From the NCBI RefSeq assembly GCF_001425045.1, contig NZ_LMDJ01000023.1, forward strand, positions 199,420-263,419: a stretch of 64,000 nucleotides of DNA. Direction: 5' to 3'. A model generated the notes under the pieces. The model was not told the origin of the DNA. It saw only the letters and a list, made by a program, of their open reading frames with translations, and searched no databases. Position 1 is the first letter of the stretch. Every line of letters starts with the position of its first letter. The translations under genes were made by a program, and so were the position numbers. This document shows positions 6,693 through 64,000 of the stretch, in pieces. The stretch comes from Massilia sp. Root351. GTDB taxonomy: Bacteria > Pseudomonadota > Gammaproteobacteria > Burkholderiales > Burkholderiaceae_D.

Positions 6693-8873
6693 ATGGACGC
6701 ATCCGACCTGCGTAACGATAAGCATGCGACGCCACGCACTGCGGCGCGGCGCGCCTTCCTGAAGACCGGTCTTGGCGCTGCCGGCGGCCTGCTGCTGTCG
6801 TTCTGCCTGCCGTCCGCCGGTGCTGCGGCAAAGATGGCGCCCGGCCCCGCATTCGCGCCCAACGCCTATTTGCGCATCGGCGCCGACAACAGCGTGACGG
6901 TGGTCTGCCCATTCGTGGAAATGGGGCAGGGCGCTTACACGTCTATTCCCATGCTGCTGGCCGAGGAACTGGAAGTGGACCTGGCCAACGTGCGCGTGGA
7001 GCACGCCCCGGCCGACGAAAAACTGTACGGCCACCCGCTGTTCGGCGCGCAATTGACGGGCGCTTCGGCCAGCGTGCGCGGCGCGTGGGAGCCGATGCGC
7101 AAGGCCGGCGCGTCGGCGCGCCTCATGCTGGTGTCGGCCGCAGCGTCCACCTGGGGCGTGGAGCCGGGCAGCTGCACGGTAGCGCAAGGCGTGGTGACGC
7201 ACCAGGCCAGCGGCCGCAAGCTGACATACGGCGAACTGGCGGCCAAGGCGGCAACCATGCCGCCGCCCACGGAGGTGCCGCTCAAGCCCGCGTCGGCCTT
7301 CCGCCTGGTGGGCACGCCGGCCAAGCGGCTGGACATTGCCGCCAAGGTGAACGGCACGGCCAAATTCGGCATCGACGCGCAGGCGCCGGGCATGAAGGTG
7401 GCGGCGGTGGCGGCCTGCCCGGTCTTCGGCGGCAAGCTGGCGTCGGTGGACGACAGCAAGGCGCGCGCGGTCAAGGGCGTGCGCAAGGTGGTCAAGCTGG
7501 ACGATGCGGTGGCGGTCATCGCCGACCACACCGGCGCCGCCCGCAAGGGCCTGGCCGCGCTGGCCATCACCTGGGACGAGGGACCGAACGCCAGGTTCTC
7601 GGGAGCCGAATGGGAGCGCCAGCTGGAAGCGGCCATGAACGGCAAGGGCCTGCTGGCGGTGAACGAAGGCGGCTACGCCAAGCTGGTCGAGGGCGGCGCG
7701 CGCCAGGTGGAGGCGGTTTATATGATGCCTTTCCTGGCCCACGCCACCATGGAGCCGATGAACTGCACCGCGCACGTGCGCAAGGACGGCGTGGACATCT
7801 GGACCGGCACCCAGGCGGCGGGCCGGGCGCAGGACTTCGTGGCCAAGGCGCTGAACGTGGACCCGGGCACGGTGCGCATCAATAACTTCCTGCTGGGCGG
7901 CGGTTTCGGGCGCAGGCTGGAGGTGGACTACATCGTGCAGGCGGCGCTGATCGCGCGCCAGGTGAGTTACCCGGTGAAGGTGGTGTGGAGCCGGGAAGAG
8001 GACATGCAGCACGATTATTTCCGTCCGCTATACCGCGACGAGCTGGCCATGGCGCTGGACGCAAAGGGCAAGCCGGTGGGCTTCCGCCACCGCTTCGCCG
8101 GCTCGGCCGTCGAGGCGCGCTACGCGCCGGCATGGATGAAGGACGGCATCGACACGGATGCCATCGACGCCGCCGCCAGCCCCTACGACTTTGCCCACAA
8201 GGTGGTGGAATTCCACCCGGTGGAGACGGCGGTGCCGACCGGCTTCTGGCGCGGTGTCGGGCCTACCCACAACACCTTCGTCATCGAGGGCTTCATGGAT
8301 GAACTGGCGGCCGGCGCCAAGGCCGACCCGCTGGCCTATCGGCGCGCCGTGCTGAGCAAGGAGCCGCGCGCGCTGGCGGTGCTGGAGCTGGCGGCGCAAA
8401 AGGCTGGCTGGGGCAAGACCATGGCGCCGGGGACCGGCATGGGGCTGGCGCTGGCAGTGGCCTGGGGCAGCTATGCCGCCTGCGTGGTGGAAGCGGCGGT
8501 GGACGCGGCGGGCCAGGTCAATCTGAAACGGGTGGTGTCGGCCATCGATTGCGGCCAGGCTGTAAATACCGACGGGGTGATCGCGCAGATCGAGAGCGGC
8601 AGCGTGTACGGGCTGACGGCCGCCTTGTACGGCAAGCTGACGCTGGAGAACGGGCGCGTCATGCAGGGTAACTTCCACGACTATCCGGTGCTGCGCATGA
8701 ACGAAGTGCCGCCCATCGAGGTGCACCTGGTGCAGAATGGCCTGGCGCCGGGGGGCGTGGGCGAGATCGGCTGCGCCATGGTGGCGCCAGCGCTGGTGAA
8801 CGCGGTGTTCGCGGCTACCGGAAAACGGCTGCGCCGCCTGCCGGTGGAGGCGGAGCAGCTGAAACAGGCTTAG
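6693..8873 (+). CDS. Molybdopterin-binding large subunit, isoquinoline 1-oxidoreductase beta type
   Basis: A 726-residue xanthine-dehydrogenase-family hydroxylase catalytic subunit. The N-terminus has a twin-arginine signal (RRAFLKTGLGAAGG) for Tat export, expected for the IorB-type single-chain form. Typical blocks include FVEMGQGAYT, LLGGGFGRRLEVDY, GFWRGVGPTHNTFVIEGFMDELA and, near the end, the GGVGEIGCAMVAPA segment with the likely catalytic Glu. The start at 6693 has AAAGGA eight bases upstream; ATG 6684, overlapping the upstream stop as ATGA, is the alternative. No FAD subunit or cytochrome c subunit is adjacent, so its electron acceptor is encoded elsewhere. The substrate is unknown (aldehyde or N-heterocycle). 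Confidence 0.87.
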   Translation: MDASDLRNDKHATPRTAARRAFLKTGLGAAGGLLLSFCLPSAGAAAKMAPGPAFAPNAYLRIGADNSVTVVCPFVEMGQGAYTSIPMLLAEELEVDLANVRVEHAPADEKLYGHPLFGAQLTGASASVRGAWEPMRKAGASARLMLVSAAASTWGVEPGSCTVAQGVVTHQASGRKLTYGELAAKAATMPPPTEVPLKPASAFRLVGTPAKRLDIAAKVNGTAKFGIDAQAPGMKVAAVAACPVFGGKLASVDDSKARAVKGVRKVVKLDDAVAVIADHTGAARKGLAALAITWDEGPNARFSGAEWERQLEAAMNGKGLLAVNEGGYAKLVEGGARQVEAVYMMPFLAHATMEPMNCTAHVRKDGVDIWTGTQAAGRAQDFVAKALNVDPGTVRINNFLLGGGFGRRLEVDYIVQAALIARQVSYPVKVVWSREEDMQHDYFRPLYRDELAMALDAKGKPVGFRHRFAGSAVEARYAPAWMKDGIDTDAIDAAASPYDFAHKVVEFHPVETAVPTGFWRGVGPTHNTFVIEGFMDELAAGAKADPLAYRRAVLSKEPRALAVLELAAQKAGWGKTMAPGTGMGLALAVAWGSYAACVVEAAVDAAGQVNLKRVVSAIDCGQAVNTDGVIAQIESGSVYGLTAALYGKLTLENGRVMQGNFHDYPVLRMNEVPPIEVHLVQNGLAPGGVGEIGCAMVAPALVNAVFAATGKRLRRLPVEAEQLKQA

Positions 8874-8913
8874 CGGGCTGAGGGGCAGGCGCGGCGCTTG
8901 TGCGGGATGGTGC

Positions 8914-9321
8914 TTAGTCCGCCGGGGCGGCCGGCAGTTGCGCCAGTACCTTGCGCAGCGCGCCATGCGCCATGGCGACCTCGGGCGAATCGTGCAGCAT
9001 GGCGCTGTAGCGCAGGCGGAAATCCTCGTCCGTGGCCGGCAGGGGGCCGACCAGGCCTTCGACCTCGGCGCGGAAGCGGCGTTCCAGGTCGACCACCAGG
9101 GCTTCCTCGTCGTCCAGGCATTCGTCCAGCGTGCTGATGATGCCGGACAGCTTTTGCAGCCAGGCGAAATGCGGGTGGCTGGTGACCAGTTGCAGGTGTT
9201 CGAGAGCGCTGCCGACGTTGCCGAAATACTGGGTTTCGACGTCCAGCAGCGCTTTGTGCAGCGTCCTGAGCGCGCGCGACAGGTGTTGCAGGTCGCTGCG
9301 CAGGGTTTTTCCTTCTATCAT
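8914..9321 (-). CDS. Hypothetical protein, 135 aa, helical
   Basis: A 135-residue, largely alpha-helical acidic protein (LQHLSRALRTLHKALLDVETQY, TSHPHFAWLQKLSGIISTLDE). It has no signal peptide or membrane span. GGAG lies upstream of the ATG, and the gene converges tightly on the molybdenum hydroxylase gene with 40 nt between stops. I do not recognise a named domain; similar short helical proteins occur as conserved hypotheticals in the family. Function not assignable. Confidence 0.6.
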   Translation of the reverse strand: MIEGKTLRSDLQHLSRALRTLHKALLDVETQYFGNVGSALEHLQLVTSHPHFAWLQKLSGIISTLDECLDDEEALVVDLERRFRAEVEGLVGPLPATDEDFRLRYSAMLHDSPEVAMAHGALRKVLAQLPAAPAD

Positions 9322-51621: not shown

Positions 51622-53139
51622 TCATGGCGCGTCCAGTTCGCGCACGGCCGCTTCCAGCGCCTCGAACGTGGCCGGCTTGGTCAGGTGGCGGTCGAAGCCT
51701 GCCGCCAGGGCGTTGTCGCGGTCGCGTGCCTGGCCGTAGCCGCTCAGCGCCACCAGGCGGATGCCGTCCAGTTCGGGCAGCCTGCGGATGGCGCTGGCCA
51801 CCTCGGTGCCGGGCATGTCCGGCAGGCCGATGTCGAGAAAGACCAGCTGCGGCCGGAACGCCAGCGCCTGGCGGAGCGCGTCCGCGCCGGTGTGGGCCGT
51901 GGCTACCTGGTGGCCGCTAAAGCCCAGCAGCGAGGCCACCATGTCGGCTGAATCCACGCTGTCGTCCACCACCAGGATGCGGCGCGGCGGCCGCGCCGCG
52001 CCGGAAGCGGACCCGGCGGCAATGTCGCCGGCGCCGGCGGCGGGCGGGGCGCACAGCGGCAGCCGGATCTCGAACGCGGCGCCCTGGCCTTCGCCGGCGC
52101 TGCTGGCCGCCACGCTGCCGCCGTGCAGGTCCACCAGGGTCTTGACCAGCGACAGGCCGATGCCGAGCCCGTCCTGCACCCGGTCGGCGCTGTGGCCGGC
52201 CTGCGCGAAGAGGGTGAAGATGCTGTCGAGCTGTTCGGGCGGGATGCCGATGCCGTTGTCGCTGATGCGTATCAGCGCGCTGTCGCCTTCGCGCGCCAGG
52301 ATGGCCTCGATGGCGCCGCCCAGCGCGGTAAACTTGCAGGCGTTGTTGAGCAGGTTGCCGGTGACCTGCGCCAGGCGCACCGCATCGCCGGCCACCCACA
52401 GCGGCTCGCCGGGCAGCCGGGACGACAGCGTCTGGCTGCGCCGAGCGGCGTTGTCGGAAGCGGTCTCGAGCACCGAGCGCAGCAGCTCGCCCAGCTCCAC
52501 CGGCGCCACCCGCAGCACGATCTTGCCCTGGGAAATGCGGGACACGTCCAGCAGGTCGTCCACCAGGCGCACCATGTGGTCGGTCTGGCGGATGATCATC
52601 TGGCGCGCCCCTTCCTGCGGCGGCGGGGCGTAGGGGTCGAGGTTGCGCAGCAGCTCGACCGCGTTGCGGATCGGGCCCAGCGGGTTGCGCAGCTCGTGCG
52701 CCAGGATGGCCAGGAACTCGTCCTTCCGGCGATTGACCTCGCGCAGCTCGCGCTCGGCCTTGGCCAGGCGCAGCAGGGCGCGCACATTGGCCACCAGCTC
52801 TTCCGGTTCGATCGGCTCGATCAGGTAATTGTCGGCGCCGCTGTCCAGCGCGCGCACGCGGTCCGGCGAGGCCACGTAGGAGGCCGAGGTCTGCAGCACC
52901 AGCACCATGGCGGTGTGCGGATTCTGCTTCAGGCGGCGGCACACGTCGAAGCCACTGAGGTCGGGCAGCTTGGTGTCGAGCAGGACCAGGGCGGGGTTTT
53001 CGCTGGCGGCCTTGGCCAGCGCTTCGCCGCCGCTGGCCGCCTCGATCACCTGGAATCCGGCGCGCTGCAGGATGCGCGATTTGGCGTAGCGCGCCGCTTC
53101 GGTGTCGTCTACATTGAGGATCAGGTCGTGCGCCATCAT
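51622..53139 (-). CDS. Hybrid histidine kinase REC-HisKA-HATPase-REC
   Basis: A 505-residue cytosolic kinase with no membrane helix. The N-terminal receiver (residues 4-125, acceptor in LLDTKLPDLSGFDVC) is followed by HisKA (EFLAILAHELRNPLGPI), HATPase (NLLNNACKF, DGLGIGLSLVKTLVDLHGG) and a second receiver (LVFLDIGLPDMPGTEV, LTKPATFE). Its ATG overlaps the stop of the upstream kinase gene. It is the last gene of the stressosome-linked operon and is probably the phosphorelay output stage. No DNA-binding regulator is adjacent. Confidence 0.88.
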   Translation of the reverse strand: MMAHDLILNVDDTEAARYAKSRILQRAGFQVIEAASGGEALAKAASENPALVLLDTKLPDLSGFDVCRRLKQNPHTAMVLVLQTSASYVASPDRVRALDSGADNYLIEPIEPEELVANVRALLRLAKAERELREVNRRKDEFLAILAHELRNPLGPIRNAVELLRNLDPYAPPPQEGARQMIIRQTDHMVRLVDDLLDVSRISQGKIVLRVAPVELGELLRSVLETASDNAARRSQTLSSRLPGEPLWVAGDAVRLAQVTGNLLNNACKFTALGGAIEAILAREGDSALIRISDNGIGIPPEQLDSIFTLFAQAGHSADRVQDGLGIGLSLVKTLVDLHGGSVAASSAGEGQGAAFEIRLPLCAPPAAGAGDIAAGSASGAARPPRRILVVDDSVDSADMVASLLGFSGHQVATAHTGADALRQALAFRPQLVFLDIGLPDMPGTEVASAIRRLPELDGIRLVALSGYGQARDRDNALAAGFDRHLTKPATFEALEAAVRELDAP

Positions 53140-54962
53140 GGGGCCTCGCGCAGTTTGGGGGACGGCGCGCCGGCGCCGGAAGCGGCCAGGTACAGGGCGT
53201 TGAGCTGCGCCAGCAGCTCGGCGCGCGGCACCGGCTTGACGAAGTAGGCGTCCGCGCCCAGCGCGTAGGCCTTCTGGCGGTCCGCCACTTCGGAGGCGAT
53301 GATCACCGGCACGTGGCGGCGCCGCTCGTCGTTCTTGGTCTGCGTCAGCCAGCGCCAGGTGTCGGTGCCGTTCAGGTAGAGGTCCAGGATGATGGCGGCC
53401 GGCGCGCCGCTATTCCAGATCTGTTCGGCTTCCCACAGGCTGCGCGCCCACACGGCGCGGTAGGGCGTGTTGCGGAAGAAGCTGCGGTACAGCAGCATGG
53501 CGGTACGGTCGTCCTCGACCACCAGCACCGGGATGCCGCCGTCGCCGGCCGGGTTGGCCGCTGCGGAAACGTCCGCGCCGCCGGCCGCGGCCAGGCTGTC
53601 CGGCAGGCCGGCGCCGGACTGGCGCAGCTTGAGCGGCAGCGTGGCGAAGAAGGTCGAACCCTGGCCGGGGGTGCTGCTCAGGCTCACCCTGCCGCCCAGC
53701 AGCGCGGCCAGCTTGCGGCACAGCGGCAGGCCCAGTCCGGTGCCCTTGGCGCTGCGCTGCAGGTGGCTGGGCACCTGGCTGAATTCTTCGAAGATCAACT
53801 GCTGGTCCCCGGCGGCGATGCCGATGCCGCTGTCCTGCACGGCAAAGCGCACCCCGGCGCCGTCCGGCAGCAGCTGGGCCGACACGCGCACCTGGCCGGC
53901 CTCGGTGAACTTCAGGGCGTTGGAGATGAAGTTGCGCAGGATTTGCGACACCTTGCCCTCGTCGCTGAGCATGAGCAGGGGGGCGGCCGGCATCTCGAAC
54001 AGCAGTTCCACCTTGGCGCTCACCAGCAGCGGGCGCAGCATGCCGCGCAGGGCGCTGAACATGTCGGCCACGTCGAACGGCTCGGCGCGGATGTCGATCT
54101 TGCCGGCCTCGATCTTGGCCAGGTCGAGCAGGTCATCGACCAGCTCGGCCAGCGAGTCGGCGCTTTTCAGGATGTAGCCGACCTGTTTTTCCTGCTCGCC
54201 GCCCAGCTCGCCGTCGGTGCGGTCCAGCAGCAGCTTGGACAGGGCGCGGATCGAGTTCAGCGGGGTGCGGAACTCGTGGCTCATATTGGACAGGAAGCGC
54301 GTTTTCATTTCATCGGCGCCGCGCAGATGCTCGGCCTGCTGGTCCAGTTCGGCGTACAGGGCCACCACGCCGCGGTTGGTGTCCTCCAGTTCGCGCGTGA
54401 GCTTGAGCAGCTCCTCCTGCCGCACGTTCAGTTCGGCCAGCGTGGTCAGCAGTTCCTTGTTCTGCTGTTGCATCTCGGACAGCGCGGCGCCGGGAGGCAG
54501 CGCGTGCAGCTCGGCGCCCAGCGCGCCGACGGCGGCCGCCGTGAGCATGGGCGCGTCGGCCGGCAGCAGCTTCTTGAGCAGGATCACGGTGCCCTTGCCG
54601 GGCGCGGTCTCGATGTCGCACTGGTCCATCAGGCGGCGGGCACCCAGGATGCCCATGCCCATGCCGGTGCTGGACTGGTAGCGCCCGGACAGTACCAGCG
54701 GCAGGTCGGCGATGCCAGGCCCCTGGTCCTCCACGCGGATCACCAGCAGCTGCGGCGCGGTGGCGCCTTCCACACTGAATTCGATGCGGCCGCTGCCGGC
54801 GTAGCTGTAGACGTTGCGCGCCAGTTCGGACACGGCGGTGGCGATGCGGGTCTGGTCCTGGCCGCCGAATCCGCACAGCGCGCCGATCTGGCGCGCGCGC
54901 TGGCGCGACGCCACCACGTCCACTTCGGCCACGATGGCCAGGCTGAGGATACGCAAGCTCAT
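53136..54962 (-). CDS. Histidine kinase with N-terminal RsbT-like ATPase and C-terminal receiver
   Basis: A 608-residue soluble kinase. Residues 1-140 form an RsbT/RsbW-type GHKL domain (RIATAVSELARNVYSYAGSG, EDQGPGIADLP, GMGMGILGARRLMD). A coiled coil (about 160-230) leads to HisKA (FLSNMSHEFRTPLNSIRA) and a second GHKL domain (NFISNALKFTE, GTGLGLPLCRKL). A C-terminal receiver follows with acceptor in ILDLYLNGTD. The ATG lies in a four-base ATGA overlap with the phosphatase gene. Two ATP sites in one protein suggest that stressosome-released signals feed directly into a phosphorelay. Confidence 0.85.
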   Translation of the reverse strand: MSLRILSLAIVAEVDVVASRQRARQIGALCGFGGQDQTRIATAVSELARNVYSYAGSGRIEFSVEGATAPQLLVIRVEDQGPGIADLPLVLSGRYQSSTGMGMGILGARRLMDQCDIETAPGKGTVILLKKLLPADAPMLTAAAVGALGAELHALPPGAALSEMQQQNKELLTTLAELNVRQEELLKLTRELEDTNRGVVALYAELDQQAEHLRGADEMKTRFLSNMSHEFRTPLNSIRALSKLLLDRTDGELGGEQEKQVGYILKSADSLAELVDDLLDLAKIEAGKIDIRAEPFDVADMFSALRGMLRPLLVSAKVELLFEMPAAPLLMLSDEGKVSQILRNFISNALKFTEAGQVRVSAQLLPDGAGVRFAVQDSGIGIAAGDQQLIFEEFSQVPSHLQRSAKGTGLGLPLCRKLAALLGGRVSLSSTPGQGSTFFATLPLKLRQSGAGLPDSLAAAGGADVSAAANPAGDGGIPVLVVEDDRTAMLLYRSFFRNTPYRAVWARSLWEAEQIWNSGAPAAIILDLYLNGTDTWRWLTQTKNDERRRHVPVIIASEVADRQKAYALGADAYFVKPVPRAELLAQLNALYLAASGAGAPSPKLREAP

Positions 54963-56089
54963 GGCTGGCCTCCCTGGCGGTCGCGCAGCACCAGCACGGT
55001 GACGTCGTCCCGCCCGCGCGAGAAATCGCGGTACAGCACGGCGGCGATGACGGCCGGGTGGCGCCCGGCCAGGCCGGGATAGTCGTCCAGGTTCCAGCGC
55101 GTGGCCAGGCCGTCGCTGTGCAGGATCAGCATGCCGCCGTGGTCCCAGGGCGCGCCGAATTCCTGCACCTTGCGCATATTGCTGCCGACAATGCCGTTGT
55201 GCGACACCAGCTGGCGGCGCGCCTCGGCGCTCCAGGCGTGGCAGGCGATGTTGCCGACCCCGGCCAGCTGCACCTGTCCTGCCAGCATGTCGATGCGGAC
55301 CACGGCGGCGGCGGCGCCACGCGTGGCGCGCAGCGCGGTGTGCGCGTCCTGCAGCAGCACGGCGGCGGGCAGGGCGGGATTGGCCAGCACCGTATGCGCC
55401 GCCAGGCGCGACGCGTCGGCCGCCAGCGGGCCGTGGCCCAGGCCGTCGGCCACCAGCACGGTGGCGCTGGTGGCGTCGCACGCCAGGGCCCAGCTGTCGC
55501 CGCAGATGGTCTCGCCGTGCATGGGCTGGCACACCACGCCCACCTCCAGCGCCATGACCGGCTGCGTGCCGTCCCCCATGCCCTGCTGTGACGGCTGCGC
55601 CTGCAACGCCTGCAACGGCTGCTGCAACTGCTGCGACTGCGGCGGCGGCTGTCCATGCTGCCCCGGCGGCGCTTGCTGCCACAGCGTCATCCAGACCACG
55701 CTACCCTGGCCCGGCGCGCTGTAGGCGTCGAAGCGGGTCGACAGGCGCTGCATGGCGCCCAGGCCCACGCCGTAGCTGCCGGCCGTGGTGCGGCCGTCCT
55801 GCAGGCTGGCGGCCAGGCTGGCCATGCCGGGGCCGGCGTCCAGCGCCAGCACTTCCACGCCCGCGGCGCCGCGGGCCGAGTGCAGCGGGCGCAGCAGGAT
55901 CTCGCCGTGCCCGGCGTGCTTGAGGATGTTGCTGGCCGCCTCGGTCACCACGATGGCCAGTTCGCCGGCGCGCACCGCGTCCATGCCGGCGCGCGCGCCC
56001 AGCTCGGCGGCGGCGCGGCGCACGGCCGCCACGTGGGTGGGGTCGGATACCGGGCAGCACAGCTGCAGCGGATTTAGTATGGTTTCCAT
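54959..56089 (-). CDS. ATP-binding SpoIIE-type phosphatase (RsbX-like)
   Basis: A 376-residue protein. Residues 1-137 are an anti-sigma-factor-type GHKL domain (ELAIVVTEAASNILKHAGHG, LDAGPGMASL, YGVGLGAMQRLS). A Gln/Pro-rich linker (138-172) leads to a PP2C/SpoIIE phosphatase domain with GDSWALA, LVADGLGHGPLAADAS and GRDDVTVLVLR metal-site motifs. In stressosomes RsbX removes phosphate from RsbR and RsbS to reset the complex; the added ATPase domain is a fusion not in Bacillus RsbX. It overlaps the rsbT gene by 16 bases and the next kinase gene by four. Confidence 0.85.
   Translation of the reverse strand: METILNPLQLCCPVSDPTHVAAVRRAAAELGARAGMDAVRAGELAIVVTEAASNILKHAGHGEILLRPLHSARGAAGVEVLALDAGPGMASLAASLQDGRTTAGSYGVGLGAMQRLSTRFDAYSAPGQGSVVWMTLWQQAPPGQHGQPPPQSQQLQQPLQALQAQPSQQGMGDGTQPVMALEVGVVCQPMHGETICGDSWALACDATSATVLVADGLGHGPLAADASRLAAHTVLANPALPAAVLLQDAHTALRATRGAAAAVVRIDMLAGQVQLAGVGNIACHAWSAEARRQLVSHNGIVGSNMRKVQEFGAPWDHGGMLILHSDGLATRWNLDDYPGLAGRHPAVIAAVLYRDFSRGRDDVTVLVLRDRQGGQP
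55574..55678 (-). repeat. Low-complexity CTGCAAC-type repeat encoding a Gln/Pro linker
   Basis: Short imperfect tandem repeats of CTG/CAA units (visible as CTGCAACGCCTGCAACGG on the plus strand) encode the Q/P/L-rich linker between the ATPase and phosphatase domains. Such tracts are prone to length change; frame is maintained here. Confidence 0.5.
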
Positions 56090-56490
56090 TTGGTGATGCT
56101 AACGGTAGTGCCGGCGCCGGGCGCCGACGTGATGTCAAACTCGTCCGCCAGCCGCTTGGCGCCGGACAGTCCCAGGCCCATGCCGCCGCCGCTGGTGTAG
56201 CCATCGGTGAGGGCGCGGGGAATGTCGTCGATGCCGGGTCCATCGTCCGTGAAAACCAGCTGCAGCCCGCGCCGCATGCCGTTGGCCACGTGCAGCAGGT
56301 GCGCTTCGCCGCCGCCGCCGTAGCGCAGCGTGTTGCGCGCCAGCTCGCTGGCCGCCGTCACCATCTTGGTCTGGTCGATCAGGCTGAAGCCCTGCGCCAC
56401 CAGCTGCTCGCGCACCTGCTGGCGCAGGCGCACCATGTCTTCGTCCAGCCGCAGCGGCACCACCATGGCGCCGGGCGCGGGGGCGTTCAT
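56074..56490 (-). CDS. rsbT: RsbT-like serine/threonine kinase (switch kinase)
   Basis: A 138-residue GHKL kinase of the RsbT type. The ATP site is marked by KMVTAASELARNTLRYGG, FTDDGPGIDDI and SGGGMGLGLSGAKRLADEF. In Bacillus RsbT phosphorylates RsbR and RsbS and is then released to activate its partner. Four-base overlap (ATGA) with rsbS upstream and 16-base overlap with the phosphatase gene. Confidence 0.9.
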   Translation of the reverse strand: MNAPAPGAMVVPLRLDEDMVRLRQQVREQLVAQGFSLIDQTKMVTAASELARNTLRYGGGGEAHLLHVANGMRRGLQLVFTDDGPGIDDIPRALTDGYTSGGGMGLGLSGAKRLADEFDITSAPGAGTTVSITKWKPY

Positions 56491-56843
56491 GCGATCTGGC
56501 GTTGAAGCAGCAGCACGCCCTTTTCCACGTTGAGCGCGGTTTGCACGCCTTCCAGCTTCAGGCCCAGCTCCACCAGCGTGATGGCCACGGCCGGCTGCAT
56601 GCCCACCAGCACCGTGTGCGCATCGAGCACGCGCGCCATGGCGGCGGTGTTGCTGATCATGCGGCCGATAAAGGAGTCCACCATGTCCAGCGTGGAAATG
56701 TCGATCAGCACGCCGCGCGCGCGGTCCTGCACGATGCGCGAGGTCAGGTCGTCCTGCAAGGTCATGGCCAGCCTGTCGTGCATGTCGACCTGGATAGTCA
56801 CCAGCAGCAGCTGGCCCATCTTGAGTATCGGGATGCGCTCCAT
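56487..56843 (-). CDS. rsbS: RsbS-like STAS protein
   Basis: A 118-residue single STAS domain. The segment LIDISTLDMVDSFIGRMI matches Bacillus RsbS around its phosphorylated Ser59, so the target serine is conserved. It forms the stressosome core with RsbR and holds RsbT. It begins seven bases after the rsbR stop and overlaps rsbT by four bases. Confidence 0.92.
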   Translation of the reverse strand: MERIPILKMGQLLLVTIQVDMHDRLAMTLQDDLTSRIVQDRARGVLIDISTLDMVDSFIGRMISNTAAMARVLDAHTVLVGMQPAVAITLVELGLKLEGVQTALNVEKGVLLLQRQIA

Positions 56844-56850
56844 GCCTGCC

Positions 56851-57714
56851 TCACGCCGCCTGGCCGTAGGTGACCGAGGCGCCCAGCCGCTTCATGGCGG
56901 TCTGGAAGGCGTCGGCCAGCGTGGCCTTGGTGGTCACGTCCTCCAGGTTCACGCCCAGGTGGACGATGGTTTGCGCGATCTGCGGGCGGATGCCGCTGAT
57001 GATGCAGTCGGCCCCCATCAGGCGCGCGGCGGCCACGGTCTTGAGCAAATGCTGCGCCACCAGGGTGTCCACGGTGGGCACGCCGGTGATGTCGATGATG
57101 GCGATGGAGGCGCCGGTGTCGATGATCTTCTGCAGCAGGTTTTCCATCACCACCTGGGTGCGGGCGCTGTCGAGGGTGCCGATCAAGGGCAGGGCCAGCA
57201 CGTCGCGCCACAGTTGCACCACCGGGGTGGACAGTTCCAGCAGCTCCTGCTGCTGGCGCAGGATCACGCCTTCGCGGTTGCGCTGGTATTCCTCGACGGT
57301 GTACAGGCCCAGGCGGTCGAACAGGGCGCCGGTGTCGGCCAGCTCCGCGCCCAGCGCGGCGCCGTCGTGGGCCAGCTCGGCGCGCAGGCCGGCGAACAGC
57401 GGCTCCTTCAGGGCGAACACGAAGGTGGCCGTCTCGGTGGGCGTGTAGCCCTGGCGCACGCGCGACGCGGAGATTTCCCTGAGCAGCTGGCGTACTTCGG
57501 TCCAGGCCGCGCCGTCGATCTCGTAGCTGGCGCCGGCCGGGGTGGCCTGGATCAGCAGCGGCAGCAGGCGCGCGGCCTGCTGGCGCATCTCGCTTTCGGC
57601 GCCTTTGTCGCGGCGCACCGTGCGCGACAGCATGGCGCTGAGCCAGCTTTCCAGCAGCGCCTCCTGGTTTTTGCTGAGGATGTTGGCGAGATGCCCGCTG
57701 CTCTGCTTGCTCAT
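56851..57714 (-). CDS. rsbR: RsbR-like STAS protein with RsbRD-type N-terminal domain
   Basis: A 287-residue RsbR paralogue. The N-terminal half (about 10-160) is helical and of the RsbRD_N type (WLSAMLSRTVRRDKG, GYTPTETATFVFALKEPLF), not a globin or PAS sensor. The C-terminal STAS domain (about 165-280) holds IIDITGVPTVDTLVAQH and IRPQIAQTIVHLGV, matching the two phosphorylated threonines (Thr171 and Thr205 in Bacillus RsbR). GGAG precedes ATG. First gene of the stressosome operon; the input signal is unknown. Confidence 0.9.
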   Translation of the reverse strand: MSKQSSGHLANILSKNQEALLESWLSAMLSRTVRRDKGAESEMRQQAARLLPLLIQATPAGASYEIDGAAWTEVRQLLREISASRVRQGYTPTETATFVFALKEPLFAGLRAELAHDGAALGAELADTGALFDRLGLYTVEEYQRNREGVILRQQQELLELSTPVVQLWRDVLALPLIGTLDSARTQVVMENLLQKIIDTGASIAIIDITGVPTVDTLVAQHLLKTVAAARLMGADCIISGIRPQIAQTIVHLGVNLEDVTTKATLADAFQTAMKRLGASVTYGQAA

Positions 57715-57807
57715 GCGTACTCCACTAAGAATGGATTTAGGAGGAGCCAGTCTAACAGCTAATGTTGAAAATCATGATTAATTTGAAACGAGGCGTGCGG
57801 CGCGGAA

Positions 57808-57829
57808 CCGGCAGCGCGCACGCTGCCGG
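57808..57829 (-). terminator. GC hairpin downstream of the TonB receptor gene
   Basis: A 9-bp stem CCGGCAGCG (57808-57816) / CGCTGCCGG (57821-57829) with a 4-nt loop begins 23 nt after the receptor stop codon on the minus strand. There is no clean T-run, so it is a likely but not certain terminator separating the receptor from rsbR. Confidence 0.5.
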
Positions 57830-57851
57830 GCCGGGAGGGGGAGGGAGCGGC

Positions 57852-59957
57852 TTACAGCTTGTAGCTGGCCTGCAGCGAGAAGGTGCGGCCGGCCATCGGC
57901 AAGTCGAACGGCAGGGTCAGGCCGGGCGCCACGCTGGGTTCGCGCACGTCGGCGTTGAAGGCGTTGCGCACGGAGGCCGAGAAGTTCCACTGGTTCTTGC
58001 CGCGCCGTGTGGACACGGTCAGGTCCAGCGTGCGGTAGTCGGCGATCGGGGCGCGCAGGTCGCCGGCCGGACGCTCGCGGTCCGCCACCCAGTTCAGCTG
58101 CGGCGACAAGGTGTAGCCGCCGCCGAACTGCCAGTCCGCGCGGGCGTACACGTGGTGGTGCGGCGCATAGCCGGCATCGCGCTGGGTAGTCTTGTCCACC
58201 GAGCGCTGCCAGGCGTAGTTGCCCACCAGGCGCAGGTCGCGGTTCACATTCCAGTTGCCTTCCAGCTCCAGGCCGTGGCCGGTCTGGCTGCCCTGGTTGG
58301 CGTAGGTGGAGCCGGTGCCGGCCACCGGGTTGGGCAGCAGGCGGATGATGTCGTCCATGGCGTAGCGGAACAGCGTCAGGTTCACCTGCGCGTCGGCCTG
58401 CGCCTGCCAGGCCAGCGCCGCCTCGAGCGTGTGGTCGGTTTCCGGCTTCAGGTTGGGGTTGCCCAGCGCCACCGGATTGGTTTCGCCGTAGGCTTCGTTG
58501 AAGGCCGGCGCGCGGAAGGCGCGCCCGTACATCAGCTTGGCGGTCAGGTCGAAGCTGGCGTCCCACACCAGCGCCACGCGCGGATTGGTGGTGCCGCCGA
58601 AGTCGGAATAGCGGTCGTGGCGCACGCCCGCCGTCAGGTTCCAGTCCTTGGCCAGGCGCCACTCGTCCTGCAGGTAAAGATAGTCGATGCGGCGCCGGTG
58701 CGGGCGCAGGAAGGTGCCTGCGTGGCTGAAATCGGCCACCGAGGGCAGCGGAATCGGGCTGCCGTTCGGCGCGTAGGTGAAGTTGCGGCGCTCGCGCGTG
58801 CGGTACAGGTGCAGGTCGTCGTGGCCGGCGCCGATGCGGATGTGGTGGTCGGCGAAGCCGCTGTAGTCGGCGAAGGCGGTGGCGCGCACGTTGCGCTCCC
58901 AGGTCTCCGGCGCGCCTATCATGCCGTTCGGGAACAGGCCGGTCGGCAGCCGCGCGCCGGGCGGCAGCAGATAATAGGCCACCGGGATTTCCTGCGAATA
59001 CTGCTGCGTGCTGACGCTCGCGCCCAGGCCCCAGTCCCTGCTGAACTGCGGGCTGGCCCAGGCCAGGCTGGAGGTGATGCGTTCGCTGCGGCCTTCGCCC
59101 ACCGGGTCCAGCGCCGAGGCGATGCCGGCGCCGCTTTGCACCTTGTCGCGCAGCTTGTAGCCGAAGCGCGCGCGCCACTGGCCGTAGGCCAGCTCGAGGT
59201 TGCCGTCGATGGCGTCGCTGCCGGCGTTCATGGGCCCGGGGGCCAGGCTGGCGCGCGTGCCCAGCAGGGTGTCGTTGCGGGTCTGGCCGTCGGCCGCGAT
59301 GGTGCCGTCCGGGCCGCCCGTGGTGCCCACGCGGACGAAGGCCGCCACATCGAGCGGACCGAGCTTGCCGCCGTGCTGGAACCAGGCGTCGCGCGTGGAC
59401 AGCGAGCCGATGCTCGCGCCCACTTCGGTGCCGGCCGCCTCGGCCGGGCCCTTGGTGATGATGTTGATGACGCCGGAGAAGGCGTCCGAGCCGTACAGCG
59501 CCGAACCGGGGCCGCGTATGACTTCGATGCGCGAGATGTGCTCGACCGGGAAGTTGCCCCAGAAATTGCCCTTGTTGCCGATGAACAGCGTGGTCACCGG
59601 CACGCCGTTCTGCAGCACCAGCAGTTGCGGCGTGAACTGGCTGAAGATGCCGCGCACGATATAGAGGGATGAATAGCTGTTGCCGCCGTGGCCCACGTGC
59701 AGGCCGGCCACCGATTCGAGCACCTGGTCCAAGTCGGTGGCGCCCATGGCGGCGATGTCGGACGCCGTGATCACCGACGCCACGGCCGGGGCGCGCCGCA
59801 GGGTCTGCAGGCTGCCGGTGGCGATGCTGACGGAGTCGCTGTCGCCGTACACCAAGGTCAGTTCGTCTTCTTCGCTGGGCGGGGCGGCCCAGGCCAGTGC
59901 CGCCGGCAGTGTCAAGGCCACCGCCAGGCAGATACGGGTTGCGCGGGAGGACTTCAA
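57852..59957 (-). CDS. TonB-dependent outer-membrane receptor
   Basis: A 701-residue receptor. A signal peptide (cleavage near AWAAPP, residue 25) precedes a probable TonB box (ELTLVYGD), the plug domain (ASVITASDIAAMGATDLDQVLESVAGLHVG, IRGPGSALYGSDAFSGVINIITK) and a 22-strand barrel ending in TFSLQASYKL. It would import a ligand across the outer membrane using TonB energy; siderophore, vitamin or sugar ligands are all possible. It lies 88 nt downstream of the citrate-synthase-like pair on the same strand. Its C-terminus (FNADVREPSVAPGL) is almost the same as that of the partial receptor at 63848-64000, so the two are paralogues. Confidence 0.9.
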   Translation of the reverse strand: MKSSRATRICLAVALTLPAALAWAAPPSEEDELTLVYGDSDSVSIATGSLQTLRRAPAVASVITASDIAAMGATDLDQVLESVAGLHVGHGGNSYSSLYIVRGIFSQFTPQLLVLQNGVPVTTLFIGNKGNFWGNFPVEHISRIEVIRGPGSALYGSDAFSGVINIITKGPAEAAGTEVGASIGSLSTRDAWFQHGGKLGPLDVAAFVRVGTTGGPDGTIAADGQTRNDTLLGTRASLAPGPMNAGSDAIDGNLELAYGQWRARFGYKLRDKVQSGAGIASALDPVGEGRSERITSSLAWASPQFSRDWGLGASVSTQQYSQEIPVAYYLLPPGARLPTGLFPNGMIGAPETWERNVRATAFADYSGFADHHIRIGAGHDDLHLYRTRERRNFTYAPNGSPIPLPSVADFSHAGTFLRPHRRRIDYLYLQDEWRLAKDWNLTAGVRHDRYSDFGGTTNPRVALVWDASFDLTAKLMYGRAFRAPAFNEAYGETNPVALGNPNLKPETDHTLEAALAWQAQADAQVNLTLFRYAMDDIIRLLPNPVAGTGSTYANQGSQTGHGLELEGNWNVNRDLRLVGNYAWQRSVDKTTQRDAGYAPHHHVYARADWQFGGGYTLSPQLNWVADRERPAGDLRAPIADYRTLDLTVSTRRGKNQWNFSASVRNAFNADVREPSVAPGLTLPFDLPMAGRTFSLQASYKL

Positions 59958-60045
59958 AGGCTATCTCCAGATGTCTATTTTTGCCATTGTAGCGTGGGGT
60001 TTCGTTGCCATGGGTAAAATCGCCACAAGTGTTGCTAGCCTGCTG

Positions 60046-60906
60046 CTATGCACGTCCCGGTGCGCTGTTGCGCCCCTTCCAGCTTCGGGGCGCGGCGCCG
60101 GCATAGGCCACCCCGCTGCAGGGCGTGGCGAACAGCGTGCCTTCGGGCTTTTCGGCCGCTTCCGCCTGGCACGGCGCCATGCCCGCCACGAAGGACGGCA
60201 CGCGCAGCAGCTGGTATTCGCGCACGGACAGGCCCATGTCCGCGATCATGGCGGCCTGCAGCGCGGCATAGTTCATGCGCAGCTGCGGGTAGCGCGTGAG
60301 CAGCACCGCTTCGATCTCGAAGGCCAGCTTCAGGTGGGGCCCGTCGTGCAGGCCCAGCCGCCTGGCCAAGTCCATGATCCAGGGCAGGCGCTCGTCGGTG
60401 GAGTTGATCGGGCGGCCGTAGCCGTAGATCTTGCTGCGTCCGGTTTCGGTCCATACCACGTCGGCCAGGCTGGCGCCGGCCTGCACCTGGGCCAGCGCCG
60501 ACTGCAGGAAGGCCATGCACATCAGGCCGGCGTGGCCGCCGTACACCTTGGCCTCCGACACCGCCATGCCGGCCACCAGGCCCAGCGCGGCGCTGCTGCG
60601 CGCGCTGCCTGCCAGCGCCGCCACGCGGTTGTTCCACAGGCGCGCATCCGGGTAGCTGGTGTGGGTCCACAGCGCCTGCACCATCTCGGCCTGCGCCGTG
60701 CTCAGGCGGCGGCCGGTGATGCCGAAGGCGTACAGCTCTATCCACTGCAGGTGGCGCAGGTCGCGGTGCAGGTCGTGGCCGCGGAACACCGCGTGGCTGC
60801 CCGGGAAGGCGGCGCCGGCCCGCGTGCGCAGGCGGCCGGCGAACTGCTGCAGCAGGGCCGGACCGCGCGCGGGCGCGGCGGGCTGGTAGTGCAAGGCGGC
60901 GCTCAT
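60046..60906 (-). CDS. Citrate-synthase-fold protein A (divergent)
   Basis: A 286-residue protein of the citrate synthase / citryl-CoA lyase superfamily, shorter than typical 370-430-residue enzymes. Recognisable blocks are SSAALGLVAGMAVSEAKVYGGHAG, equivalent to the first catalytic-His loop (His kept), and KIYGYGRPINSTDERLPW, equivalent to the GxGHxxY...DPR motif but with Arg where His is expected. The usual Asp region reads MNYAALQAAMIADMGL with no Asp in place. It therefore probably lacks normal citrate synthase chemistry alone. It overlaps its paralogue gene by four bases. May form a mixed dimer with protein B; the function is unknown. Confidence 0.7.
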   Translation of the reverse strand: MSAALHYQPAAPARGPALLQQFAGRLRTRAGAAFPGSHAVFRGHDLHRDLRHLQWIELYAFGITGRRLSTAQAEMVQALWTHTSYPDARLWNNRVAALAGSARSSAALGLVAGMAVSEAKVYGGHAGLMCMAFLQSALAQVQAGASLADVVWTETGRSKIYGYGRPINSTDERLPWIMDLARRLGLHDGPHLKLAFEIEAVLLTRYPQLRMNYAALQAAMIADMGLSVREYQLLRVPSFVAGMAPCQAEAAEKPEGTLFATPCSGVAYAGAAPRSWKGRNSAPGRA

Positions 60907-61766
60907 GCGGCCTCCCGCAGCTGCATGGACGGCGTGGCGGCCGGATCGAGCTCCAGTTTATAGAAGGGGAAGTGCTTGAAGCCGGTGCGGCCCTGTTCCA
61001 GCGCGTGGGCGGCGGCGCCGGGCAGGCGCAGCAGCAGGTACAGCATCTCGCCCTCGTCGGGGCTGAAGCCGAGGTCGTTGAACACGCAGGCGGCCACGCC
61101 GCTGACGGCCAGCGGCAGGCCGACGGCGGCGCGCGCATGGTCTTCGCGGCCGAGCGACACTTGCGCGTGCAGCCAGGCGGTGTAGGGACCGGCGCCCAGC
61201 TCGGTCAGCGTGGCCAGCAGCTGGCGCACCGGCAGCGCGGTGCTCACGCCGTGCGGGTCGAAGCCGGGCACGTGGGCGGCCTCGGGCCAGACGTCGACCA
61301 CGTCCTGGCGGCGGCCGGCAAGATAGGCGGCCCAGGCCGACAGGTCGGGGCCGCAGCTGCGCCACATGGTCATGGCGTCGTGCACTTCGCGCGCGCCGCC
61401 GCTGCGGCCGGCGCCCACGGCCAGCGCCGCCATCAGGGCGGAGGCGGCGGACGAGCCGCCCACGCCGGCGCACATGGCCGCGTGCACCGAGGCGTCGCGC
61501 GGGCCGGGATTGGCCAGCGCCACGGCCAGCGCTTCAAGCGCGTCGAGCTGCGGGCGGGCCGGCAGTTCGCTGCGCAGCAGCAGCCACAGCATCTCCACCC
61601 AGCGCGCGTTGCCCACCATTTCGCCGTACACGTCGTAGCCGCGCAGGCGCGCGCTGCGGGTGGCGAAGGCGTTGTCGGCCTCCGGCGCTTCATCCCAGAT
61701 GGCGGTGTGGATCAAATCCTTGGGCGAGGGCGCCGGCGCCGCGTGCAGGTTCTGCTGCGCCATCAC
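60903..61766 (-). CDS. Citrate-synthase-fold protein B (divergent)
   Basis: A 287-residue protein of the same superfamily as its downstream neighbour. The block RDASVHAAMCAGVGGSSAASALMAAL and the end LAVSGVAACVFNDLGFSPDEGEMLYLLLRLPGAAAHALE follow citryl-CoA lyase patterns closely. The first catalytic-His loop reads GAGRSGGARE (His absent), and the Asp position in the LNVDG-type motif is Ser (LAVSG). It is translationally coupled by four-base overlaps to both the upstream ThDP enzyme and protein A. Likely acts in concert with them on a 2-oxoacid-derived substrate; this is inference. Confidence 0.7.
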   Translation of the reverse strand: MMAQQNLHAAPAPSPKDLIHTAIWDEAPEADNAFATRSARLRGYDVYGEMVGNARWVEMLWLLLRSELPARPQLDALEALAVALANPGPRDASVHAAMCAGVGGSSAASALMAALAVGAGRSGGAREVHDAMTMWRSCGPDLSAWAAYLAGRRQDVVDVWPEAAHVPGFDPHGVSTALPVRQLLATLTELGAGPYTAWLHAQVSLGREDHARAAVGLPLAVSGVAACVFNDLGFSPDEGEMLYLLLRLPGAAAHALEQGRTGFKHFPFYKLELDPAATPSMQLREAA

Positions 61767-63649
61767 TCGCCTCCGTTGAGCAGGACCCGCAGGCGGCTGC
61801 CCATGGGCGGCACTTCCTCCGGGTCGATCTGGATGTCGAGCAGCGTGGGGCCGGGATAGTTGCAGATGGCCTTGATGTCGAGCGCCTCCAGCTCGGCCGC
61901 CGAGCGGATGGTGTGGCCGCGCCCGCCCAGCGCGCGGGCCAGGCCGGCGAAATCAGTTTGCGGCAGGGCGAAGGCGATCGGCTCGCCGCCGCCCAGGCGC
62001 TGGCCGTGCTTGACCATGCCCAGCGCCGCGTCGTTAAGAATGACGAACACCACGCACTGCTGCTCGGCCACCGCCACGGACAGCTCCTGGCCGCTCATCA
62101 GCATGCTGCCGTCGCCGGTGATGCACACCACCGGCGCCGAGGCGTTGCCGGCCGCCGTGCCGACGGCCGCGCCGATGGCCCAGCCCATGGGGGCGAAGTG
62201 GGACGTCAGGCGCAGCCAGCCGCCGGCGCTGCGGCGCTTGCCCAGTTGGCGCGACCGGTCGCTGTTGCCGGCGCGGCGTTCGCCCATGCGGCGGTCGCGC
62301 GGCTGCAGGTAGTGGATGGCCCAGGCGGCGCTGCTGCCGGCGTCTGCCAGGAAGCGGGTGCTGGGCGGGAACATGCGGCCCAGCTCCTTCATCAGGCGCT
62401 GCGGCTTGATCGGCACCGCGTCGCTGTCGTAGGCGGCCTGGGAGTCGAGCATGGAAGCCGGCTCCCAGCGGTGGCTGGCCAGCTCGCGCTTGTGGCGGCG
62501 CTTGGCGCGCGCGGACACGCCCAGGTGGCCCTGGCCCAGCATGGTGGCCTGCTCGTGGGCGATGCCGTCGACCAGGCGCTCGAACACGGCGGCCAGGCTG
62601 CCGCGCACGTGCAGGCCGGCCATCGGCGTGCGCGCGAGGTGCTCCTCGCAGTCGCCGACGTGCACCAGGCGGCCGTTCAGCAGGCTCTCGCTCCAGCCGC
62701 CGGTGTCCCATTCGCCCATGCTGCAGCCGACTGCCAGGATCAGGTCCACCGAGCTCTCGCGCAGGGCCGCGTCGGCCGTGGCGTGGCCGCCGAAGCCGAA
62801 GGTGCCGCGGTACAGCGGATGCTGCGGACTGACCAGGCCCTTGCCGTCGGTGGTGGTGATGAAGGTGGCGCCCTCCAGGTCGGCGAACTGCAGGATGGAG
62901 TGGATGGCGTCGGTGCAGCCGGCGCCGATCAGCATCACCACGTTGCGCGCGCCGGCCAGCAGCGAGCGCAGCTTTTCCACCGCGCCGTCGTCCATCAGGC
63001 CGGCCGCGCCATGCAGGGCGGACAGGTCGTAGCTGGGCGCCGGCTGCGGGCTGGCGGCGCGGAACACGTCGGACGGCACGCTCAGGTGCACCGGGCCGGG
63101 CGCGCTGCGGGTGGCGTGCTGCAGCGCGGTGACCAGTTTCCATTCCAGCTGGGCGGGGTGGGACACCATGGTGTTGTAGCGCGTGCAGTGGCGGAACATG
63201 GCCAGCACGTCGATGCCGGTGCAGGACGATTCCTGCAGCGTCACCTTGCCGAAGGAGGGCAGATTGGGCTGAGCGGTGATGACCAGCACCGGCACGCCGT
63301 TGGCGTGGGAGTTGGCCACGGCGGTGAGCATATTGGTGGCGCCCGGGCCGGAGGTGGAGATGCAGACGCCGAGCTTGCCGGTTTCGCGGGCGTAGCCGTC
63401 GGCCATGAAGGCGGCGCCGGCCTCGTTGCGCGCCACGATCTGGCTCAGGTTGCCGCCGTTGCGCAGGTTGCGGGCGATGGCGTTGTACAGCGGCTCGATG
63501 GCGCCGCCGGGCACGCCGAACACGTAGTCGACCCCCATCTGCTCCAGGTAGGCCACCAGCAGGTCGGCGGTGTCGGTGATGTGCAGGGTGGGATTGGCGG
63601 CGGCAGGGCGTGACTTCTCCTGTCGTTCAAACTCGACATTGTCAAACAT
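61763..63649 (-). CDS. Acetolactate-synthase-like ThDP-dependent enzyme
   Basis: A 628-residue thiamine diphosphate enzyme. The N-terminal domain has VFGVPGGAIEPLYNAI and the catalytic Glu in ARNEAGAAFMADGYAR. The C-terminal ThDP motif is GDGSMLMSGQELS...FVILND. Compared with acetolactate synthase it has a basic insertion near residues 450-478 (ERRAGNSDRSRQLGKRR) before the SHFAPMGWAIGAAVG block. GGAG lies before ATG 63649. First gene of the coupled trio with the citrate-synthase-like pair. It is not near ilv genes, so it is unlikely to be the housekeeping enzyme; it may decarboxylate pyruvate or another 2-oxoacid for a specialised product. Confidence 0.82.
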   Translation of the reverse strand: MFDNVEFERQEKSRPAAANPTLHITDTADLLVAYLEQMGVDYVFGVPGGAIEPLYNAIARNLRNGGNLSQIVARNEAGAAFMADGYARETGKLGVCISTSGPGATNMLTAVANSHANGVPVLVITAQPNLPSFGKVTLQESSCTGIDVLAMFRHCTRYNTMVSHPAQLEWKLVTALQHATRSAPGPVHLSVPSDVFRAASPQPAPSYDLSALHGAAGLMDDGAVEKLRSLLAGARNVVMLIGAGCTDAIHSILQFADLEGATFITTTDGKGLVSPQHPLYRGTFGFGGHATADAALRESSVDLILAVGCSMGEWDTGGWSESLLNGRLVHVGDCEEHLARTPMAGLHVRGSLAAVFERLVDGIAHEQATMLGQGHLGVSARAKRRHKRELASHRWEPASMLDSQAAYDSDAVPIKPQRLMKELGRMFPPSTRFLADAGSSAAWAIHYLQPRDRRMGERRAGNSDRSRQLGKRRSAGGWLRLTSHFAPMGWAIGAAVGTAAGNASAPVVCITGDGSMLMSGQELSVAVAEQQCVVFVILNDAALGMVKHGQRLGGGEPIAFALPQTDFAGLARALGGRGHTIRSAAELEALDIKAICNYPGPTLLDIQIDPEEVPPMGSRLRVLLNGGE

Positions 63650-63847
63650 ATAAGCTCCTAATATGGGCGAAATCGGCTTGTCCGATAAGCCGATATTAAC
63701 TAGCAAGATTGCAACGTTGAGTGCTCAAATGCAATAAATGTTGCAGTGCGAGATAATAGCTTAAATTTCAGGCAATGTGTGAGATTTGGTGATAATTAGT
63801 GAAAAAATTCTATTGCCGCTTTCGTAATAACGATTGCTGCAATGAAA
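63650..63847 (-). other. AT-rich leader/promoter region of the ThDP-enzyme operon
   Basis: 198 nt between the paralogous receptor (stop at 63848) and the ThDP-enzyme start, more AT-rich than the genes. It holds the hairpins at 63672-63694 and a separated TTGCAAC / GTTGCA repeat (63709-63715, 63740-63745). TAATAG and TTGTGATAATT-like stretches may be promoter elements; none is certain. Confidence 0.4.
63672..63694 (-). promoter_or_regulatory. Leader hairpin(s) upstream of the ThDP enzyme gene
   Basis: ATCGGCTT (63672-63679) pairs with AAGCCGAT (63687-63694) around a 7-nt loop, 23 nt before the start codon. CCGAT is repeated (63682-63686), so ATCGG could instead pair with the nearer copy, giving two mutually exclusive stems. 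It may be a protein-binding dyad or a small leader switch. Confidence 0.35.
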
Positions 63848-64000
63848 TTACAAGGTGAACAAGGCCCGCAGGTAGACCGAGCGCGGGGCCATGGGCAGGT
63901 CGTTGGGGATGAGACCGGGCGCCAGGCTGGGCTCGCGCACGTCGGCGTTGAAGACGTTGCGCAGCGCGAGCGACAGTTCGCAATGGCGCAGCAGGCGGCC
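63848..64000 (-). CDS. C-terminus of a second TonB-dependent receptor (partial)
   Basis: The final 50 codons of a minus-strand gene that continues beyond the window. The translated end contains RNVFNADVREPSLAPGL and finishes YLRALFTL, matching the C-terminus of the receptor at 57852-59957 (RNAFNADVREPSVAPGL, ending SLQASYKL). The terminal hydrophobic/aromatic strand is the outer-membrane insertion signal. It lies upstream of the ThDP-enzyme operon on the same strand, so paralogous receptors bracket that operon. Confidence 0.8.
   Translation of the reverse strand, partial: GRLLRHCELSLALRNVFNADVREPSLAPGLIPNDLPMAPRSVYLRALFTL

Follow-up and report, generated by a model that had tools for sequence, protein, structure and literature searches.

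A stretch of 64,000 nt from Massilia sp. Root351 (contig NZ_LMDJ01000023.1, positions 199,420 to 263,419; G000:C23:199420-263419 in our numbering; hereafter the window) carries three adjoining genes, encoding a thiamine diphosphate (ThDP)-dependent enzyme and two proteins related to citrate synthase (CS), named CS1 and CS2, which we describe here as the core of a candidate chemical-signalling system. According to this reading, for which we see about an even chance, the trio would make a small molecule that re-enters through a TonB-dependent receptor (TBDR), is bound by a periplasmic binding protein (PBP) and is read by a kinase or by cyclic di-GMP (c-di-GMP) signalling. A bolder version, which we hold tentatively and place somewhat short of an even chance, is that of a new cell-to-cell signalling system across Pseudomonadota: the ThDP enzyme and a heteromeric, catalytically remodelled CS pair would make signals of a new class, which reduction or sulfation would diversify, and TonB entry together with an orphan binding protein would feed a receptor of the kinase/c-di-GMP type whose gene belongs to the same operon.

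The trio consists of three open reading frames (ORFs) on the minus strand, each neighbouring pair overlapping by 4 nt. The ThDP-dependent enzyme, which resembles acetohydroxyacid synthase (AHAS), is encoded at 61763..63649 (about 628 aa), CS1 at 60903..61766 (287 aa) and the divergent CS2 at 60046..60906 (286 aa). The earliest possible start of the ThDP gene is a TTG at 63706 (ORF 61763-63706), and we placed the start at the ATG at 63649 because it agrees with the N-termini of orthologues, which begin MFD/MYD..VEFE. An earlier note on this DNA had described the trio as three genes with four-base overlaps, encoding an acetolactate-synthase-like enzyme and two CS-fold proteins and bracketed by paralogous TonB receptors; ORFs, Pfam and NCBIfam agree with this description, and the two flanking receptors share 56% identity across the 445 residues compared. 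A scan of 57600-64000 gave one promoter-like and no terminator-like site, with no excess over shuffled sequences.

We compared 56 CS2-bearing loci from 55 genomes (22 of the 30 strong genomes of the family, 28 of the 40 other strong genomes of the class and five found via a ThDP search) with 20 control stretches of 20 kb, taken from 20 of the case genomes. Contig ends truncate many of the case loci, and the window's own locus, of 36 kb, is the longest. The profiles for TBDR, PBP, short-chain dehydrogenase/reductase (SDR), sulfotransferase and adenosine 5′-phosphosulfate (APS) kinase were built from recurrent genes of the case loci, and the signalling-domain queries were single stretches from L131, L091 and L141. 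CS1 was found in 54/56 case loci and the ThDP gene in 50/56, against 0/20 controls each. TBDR genes were present in 49/56 loci and genes for PBPs of the PF04392 family in 38/56, again against 0/20 controls, with optimistic Fisher P values of 8e-13 and 6e-8, respectively, which shows the trio as a conserved unit tied to receptors and supports the link to them made in the earlier note. Signalling domains were also enriched: GGDEF in 41/56 loci against 5/20 controls (P = 3e-4), EAL in 35/56 against 3/20 (P = 5e-4), HATPase in 38/56 against 5/20 (P = 1.4e-3) and any signalling domain in 50/56 against 9/20 (P = 1.6e-4). SpoIIE occurred in 4/56 loci and 0/20 controls, SDR in 14/56 and 2/20, sulfotransferase in 7/56 and 0/20, and APS kinase in 5/56 and 0/20.

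The arrangement of these genes is also recurrent, ThDP-(SDR)-CS1-CS2-TBDR-(sulfotransferase-APS kinase)-PBP-sensor being a frequent order. CS1 and CS2 lay on the same strand in 57/57 pairs, with the exact 4-nt overlap in 28, and ThDP and CS1 were separated by an SDR-sized gap of 700-1300 nt in 16 of the 53 same-strand cases. The PBP adjoined a signalling gene in 36 of the 38 loci that carry one, adjacency being defined as the next recognised gene on the same strand with stop-to-stop frames less than 300 nt apart. The sensors themselves vary, comprising kinase-GGDEF-EAL hybrids, HAMP-GGDEF-EAL proteins, a separate kinase with a receiver-PAS-GGDEF-EAL protein, receiver-SpoIIE and receiver-GGDEF proteins; some carry HAMP with periplasmic domains of the sCache/CHASE8 type, and genes for MCP and CheW are found close to some loci. 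APS kinase genes adjoin the unit at L027:4332-4979 and L121:12013-12648; L121 has a sulfotransferase as well, and L027 contains an SDR-like gene and, downstream, another TonB receptor. Other flanking families (lytic transglycosylase, poly(A) polymerase-like, GST, Band_7, NfeD, aminotransferase, L-PSP and EamA) were each seen in few loci. One locus, L116 (G568:C1:3144000-3163900), holds two each of ThDP genes and TonB receptors besides CS1, CS2 and an SDR, and possibly makes two products.

The earlier note had made its idea depend on the trio being conserved together elsewhere, and the trio does recur in other genomes and classes. A CS2 search matched 36 of 294 genomes of the family (30 at E<1e-50, own genome included, and six weakly) and 44 of 369 genomes of the class (41 at E<1e-20, own genome included). 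In the phylum, the CS2 profile A1 matched 43 of 398 genomes, 10 of them at E<1e-50 (own genome and G412 included); the remaining 33 matches (E 3e-20 or weaker) are probably other CS-fold proteins. The trio is patchy in Gammaproteobacteria, is present in other classes of the phylum and has a permuted order in places. Among 11 loci, the carriers were five Rugamonas, two Pseudoduganella, one Massilia, one Janthinobacterium and two known to family level. A ThDP search (E<=1e-60) in 16 genomes, picked mostly because a ThDP gene had not been seen next to CS2, was positive in 11 of them: the match was strong in G462, G519, G523, G671, G633, G403 and G663, weaker in G397, G505 and G527, and broken in G360. 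At this threshold none was found in G454, G172, G378, G681 and G474, only G454 of these having a strong CS2.

Nine additional genomes of the class, outside the 56 loci, carried the TBDR in 7/9 and the PBP in 4/9; two of them (L196 and L197), both from weak CS2 matches, had neither. Of the eight genomes opened outside the class, four (L181, L186, L187 and L188) showed the order TBDR-CS1-CS2-ThDP-PBP-kinase. A single 886-aa ThDP-CS1 fusion is encoded at L104:7276-9936 (ThDP profile 11-594, CS1 profile 609-875), in one genome only and with an assembly error possible. At L195 (G360:C1:3407500-3427400) the ThDP frame contains stops and CS2 is in two pieces, and the unit appears decayed. In G462, CS2 is split across two distant chromosomal sites (L102 and L198), and the front part has stayed next to ThDP-SDR-CS1, as after breakage by a rearrangement.

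Judged by its sequence, the ThDP protein is not a typical acetolactate synthase. It has all three TPP-enzyme Pfam domains (N, M and C), and the catalytic Glu95, the GDG motif and Asn558 (numbering from TTG 63706) are kept in 53/53 homologues. The ThDP fold and motif are common to acetolactate synthase/AHAS, BbmA, CsmA and ScyA-type enzymes, but the protein scores 284.6 bits against TIGR00118, the model of biosynthetic acetolactate synthase, below the cut-off of 538.35, and matches the ScyA models under their cut-offs too. Its nearest solved chains are BbmA (E 6e-74) and CsmA (2e-62), followed by AHAS (1e-55); a search of open-access literature yielded no paper on BbmA or CsmA, and therefore no function could be transferred from them. 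The other ThDP genes of the same genome are 28-31% identical to that of the window. A second relative, 55% identical to the window's, lies in L134 (G017:C66:12500-32400), with one in-frame stop and neither CS1 nor CS2 recognised in its vicinity.

CS1 and CS2 have the citryl-CoA lyase fold, as indicated by profile matches and by modest structural models. In Pfam, CS1 gave a single weak match, to Citrate_synt (28.8 bits, cut-off 27), and CS2 gave none at E<=0.1; in NCBIfam, citryl-CoA lyase (PRK06224 group) was nearest for both, at 74.7 bits or less against cut-offs of 193-261. Profile matches to 6hxp were obtained for CS1 (E=1.6e-22) and CS2 (E=6.3e-17). The models, helical and of modest confidence, which makes Z weak by itself, gave a VIA Z of 13.4 to 6hxp for CS1 (pLDDT 58) and of 15.0 to 6nzy_A and 14.6 to 6hxp for CS2 (pLDDT 64). 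Both proteins share fold and length with citryl-CoA lyase (structure 6hxp) and with the lyase module of ATP-citrate lyase; they differ from these in that two paralogues stand together, the His/His/Asp residues are replaced and other residues are invariant.

This triad is what we take to be the catalytic set of citrate synthase and citryl-CoA lyase, and its three sites were mapped by HMMER alignment to 6hxp. CS2 (n=61) has Tyr (58) or Phe (3) at the first site, Arg in 61/61 sequences at the second, and Ala (45), Gly (8), Thr (3), Asn (3) or Ser (2) at the third. CS1 (n=57) shows mixed residues at the first site, with His in 9/57; its second site is Pro (47), Ser (5), Ala (4) or Lys (1), and its third is mostly Ser/Thr; a neighbouring His172, present in 43/57, might substitute for the second-site His. 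Seven CS2 residues (Arg89, Trp91, Asn93, Arg165, Asp171, Glu172 and Arg173) are invariant in 61/61 sequences, and Asn86, Arg90, His254 and Glu257 of CS1 are invariant in 57/57. In this alignment CS1 and CS2 have largely lost the His/His/Asp set, and ordinary citrate chemistry is unlikely because of these replacements; we infer a working site with different chemistry, rather than decay. Distance correlations over 52 sequences, uncorrected for species relatedness and of little weight, were 0.55 for ThDP-CS1, 0.67 for ThDP-CS2 and 0.89 for CS1-CS2.

Directly downstream of CS2 in the window is a TBDR gene (57852..59957, minus strand; 701 aa, Pfam Plug and barrel), whose orthologue comes after CS2 in many loci. 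The end of the upstream TonB receptor is at 63848..64000 on the minus strand, and its remainder lies past the window edge (L131:148-2286 = G000:C23:263267-265405). Also past the edge and on the same strand are genes for a 1498-aa hybrid sensor (L131:2307-6803) of architecture sCache-HAMP-HisKA-HATPase-receiver-Hpt-GGDEF-EAL and for two PF04392 (ABC_sub_bind) binding proteins (L131:6837-8039 and 8221-9228), which account for two of the three PF04392 matches in the whole 7.2-Mb genome. PF04392 relatives in the PDB include 3lkv and 3lft, where aromatic amino acids are reportedly bound. ScyA-type enzymes join arylpyruvates, and from these two pieces of background comes our guess that the trio product could be an aromatic acyloin.

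A stressosome-like cluster (RsbR, RsbS, RsbT, HATPase-SpoIIE and histidine kinases) begins 138 nt past the downstream receptor. By Pfam, these stressosome or partner-switching genes span 51622..57714 on the minus strand and encode RsbRD_N-STAS (56851-57714), STAS (56487-56843), HATPase (56074-56490) and HATPase-SpoIIE (54959-56089) proteins and two histidine kinases with receivers (53136-54986 and 51622-53139). RsbR- and RsbS-like genes also adjoin the receptors in G017 (L133), so that the adjacency is common to a relative, and the cluster is a possible local output of the system.

As regards import across the inner membrane, no ATP-binding cassette (ABC) ATPase lies in C23:144,871-278,730 of the own genome among those scored (150 of 212 genome candidates), and both PBPs look orphan. 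ABC ATPase genes were not enriched at the case loci (9/56, against 3/20 controls). Four, in L097, L099, L106 and L109, lay 2 kb or less from the core; the three proteins scanned, from L097, L106 and L109, contain two ABC_tran stretches and ABC_tran_Xtn, and we take such two-ATPase proteins to be ABC-F and not transporters. Judged by ABC ATPases, permeases not having been searched for, the unit has no recognised inner-membrane importer. A search for the major facilitator superfamily returned 0/56 case loci and 0/20 controls and was not used, two of its three queries probably having wrong-frame ends.

We propose that the trio would be the biosynthetic core of a chemical-signalling cassette. The ThDP enzyme would join an activated aldehyde unit, derived from a 2-oxoacid, to an acceptor, and the CS1/CS2 pair, probably a heteromer, would use its remodelled active site for a non-citrate step; tailoring of the product, by an SDR or by APS kinase together with sulfotransferase, may follow in some lineages. 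Once exported, the product would come back into the periplasm through the operon's TonB receptor and bind the orphan PF04392 protein; the adjacent membrane sensor would read the loaded binding protein and drive phosphorelay and c-di-GMP output, with SpoIIE-type partner switching as a possible output in some lineages. From gene content and order, conservation, fold assignment and residue replacement, which are observed, we infer the chemistry, the heteromer, export, the ligand and the PBP-sensor contact. Since sulfotransferase, APS kinase and SDR genes occur at the loci, synthesis is favoured and breakdown seems less likely, two directions between which the earlier note had not chosen. Among the products and roles it had considered, a signal is favoured by the neighbours, and a hydroxy-polycarboxylate made by citrate-synthase catalysis is not supported, the catalytic set being largely gone.

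The signalling reading draws on the tailoring enzymes, on the absence of a recognised inner-membrane importer and on most accompanying genes being of a kind that senses and relays. Several points weigh against it. The PBP is absent from 18/56 loci, some of these cut by contig ends, and 6/56 loci have no signalling domain found; signalling genes are common in any case, as the 9/20 controls show, and the TBDR and PBP profiles were made from case loci that are related to one another, hence the optimism of the P values. Sulfotransferase and APS kinase are rare, and neither an exporter nor a product is known. Outside the class, the other four of the eight genomes (L182-L185), which belong to another class, have ThDP-CS1-CS2 without TBDR or PBP. 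In L182, L184 and L185 the same strand runs on into a giant protein (Ser/Thr kinase-AAA-GAF-histidine kinase in L184) and a response regulator (with a LuxR-type domain in L184), L183 has a related fragment on the opposite strand, and FkbH-like, MaoC-SDR or AMP-ligase genes lie near these four loci. Moreover, much of the same layout would be expected from nutrient or metallophore sensing.

The trio might instead make a secreted metallophore or antibiotic-like metabolite, recovered by the TonB receptor, with the binding protein and sensor detecting its return. TonB receptors typically import metallophores, the receptor stands beside biosynthesis genes in most loci, and the tailoring genes would suit any secondary metabolite; but the importer result and the ABC-F assignments speak against it, a c-di-GMP output would be unusual for metal uptake, and we consider it unlikely. 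Catabolism coupled to sensing, in which an environmental compound enters through the receptor, is detected by the PBP and sensor and undergoes lyase-type degradation by the trio, is in our view a shade less probable still. Lyases are found among the CS-fold relatives, ThDP enzymes can cleave, and receptor, PBP and sensor make a plausible nutrient-sensing layout, against which stand the same lack of a recognised transporter in the unit, the anabolic nature of sulfotransferase and APS kinase and the loss of the lyase catalytic residues from CS1 and CS2. The superfamily assignments, taken alone, would fit ordinary metabolism, that is, one more acetolactate synthase together with degenerate citrate-synthase paralogues near unrelated receptors. 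This is very improbable given the recurrence of the set across classes, scores well below equivalog cut-offs, the other ThDP genes in the genome and the invariant non-canonical residues; ordinary ilv or tricarboxylic acid cycle paralogues were rejected on scores, replaced residues and synteny. A chance neighbourhood is likewise disfavoured by the recurrence of the trio and by the control counts.

The proposed signalling system has partial counterparts among known ones. CqsA and LqsA are alpha-hydroxyketone autoinducer synthases and pyridoxal phosphate enzymes. They are alike in having the synthase gene next to a sensor kinase, and a hydroxyketone is a possible product of the trio; they differ in the type of synthase and in lacking a TonB receptor, a binding protein and a CS-fold pair. 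LuxP-LuxQ is a pair of binding protein and membrane sensor. In Vibrio cholerae, NspS-MbaA, a polyamine binding protein with a GGDEF-EAL receptor (PMC8967002, PMC9993111, PMC11113362), is a pair of the same type and a precedent for the arrangement seen in 36 of the 38 PBP loci, where the genes for a periplasmic binding protein and for a membrane sensor of c-di-GMP or phosphorelay output stand together. The trio loci differ from both pairs by a PF04392 binding protein, an added TonB receptor and presumed synthesis genes in the same operon. The accessible open-access literature gave no description of the trio set or its pathway, in line with the statement of the earlier note that no characterised pathway has this set, and absence from print as a whole is not implied.

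If the signalling reading is true, the trio would represent a new class of signal, a new role for the citrate synthase fold and a receptor route that leads from a TonB receptor via a binding protein to a sensor, spread in environmental proteobacteria of many families. Even if the product were a metallophore, paired CS-fold proteins without the citrate-synthase residues and tied to a ThDP enzyme would constitute unexplained enzymology.

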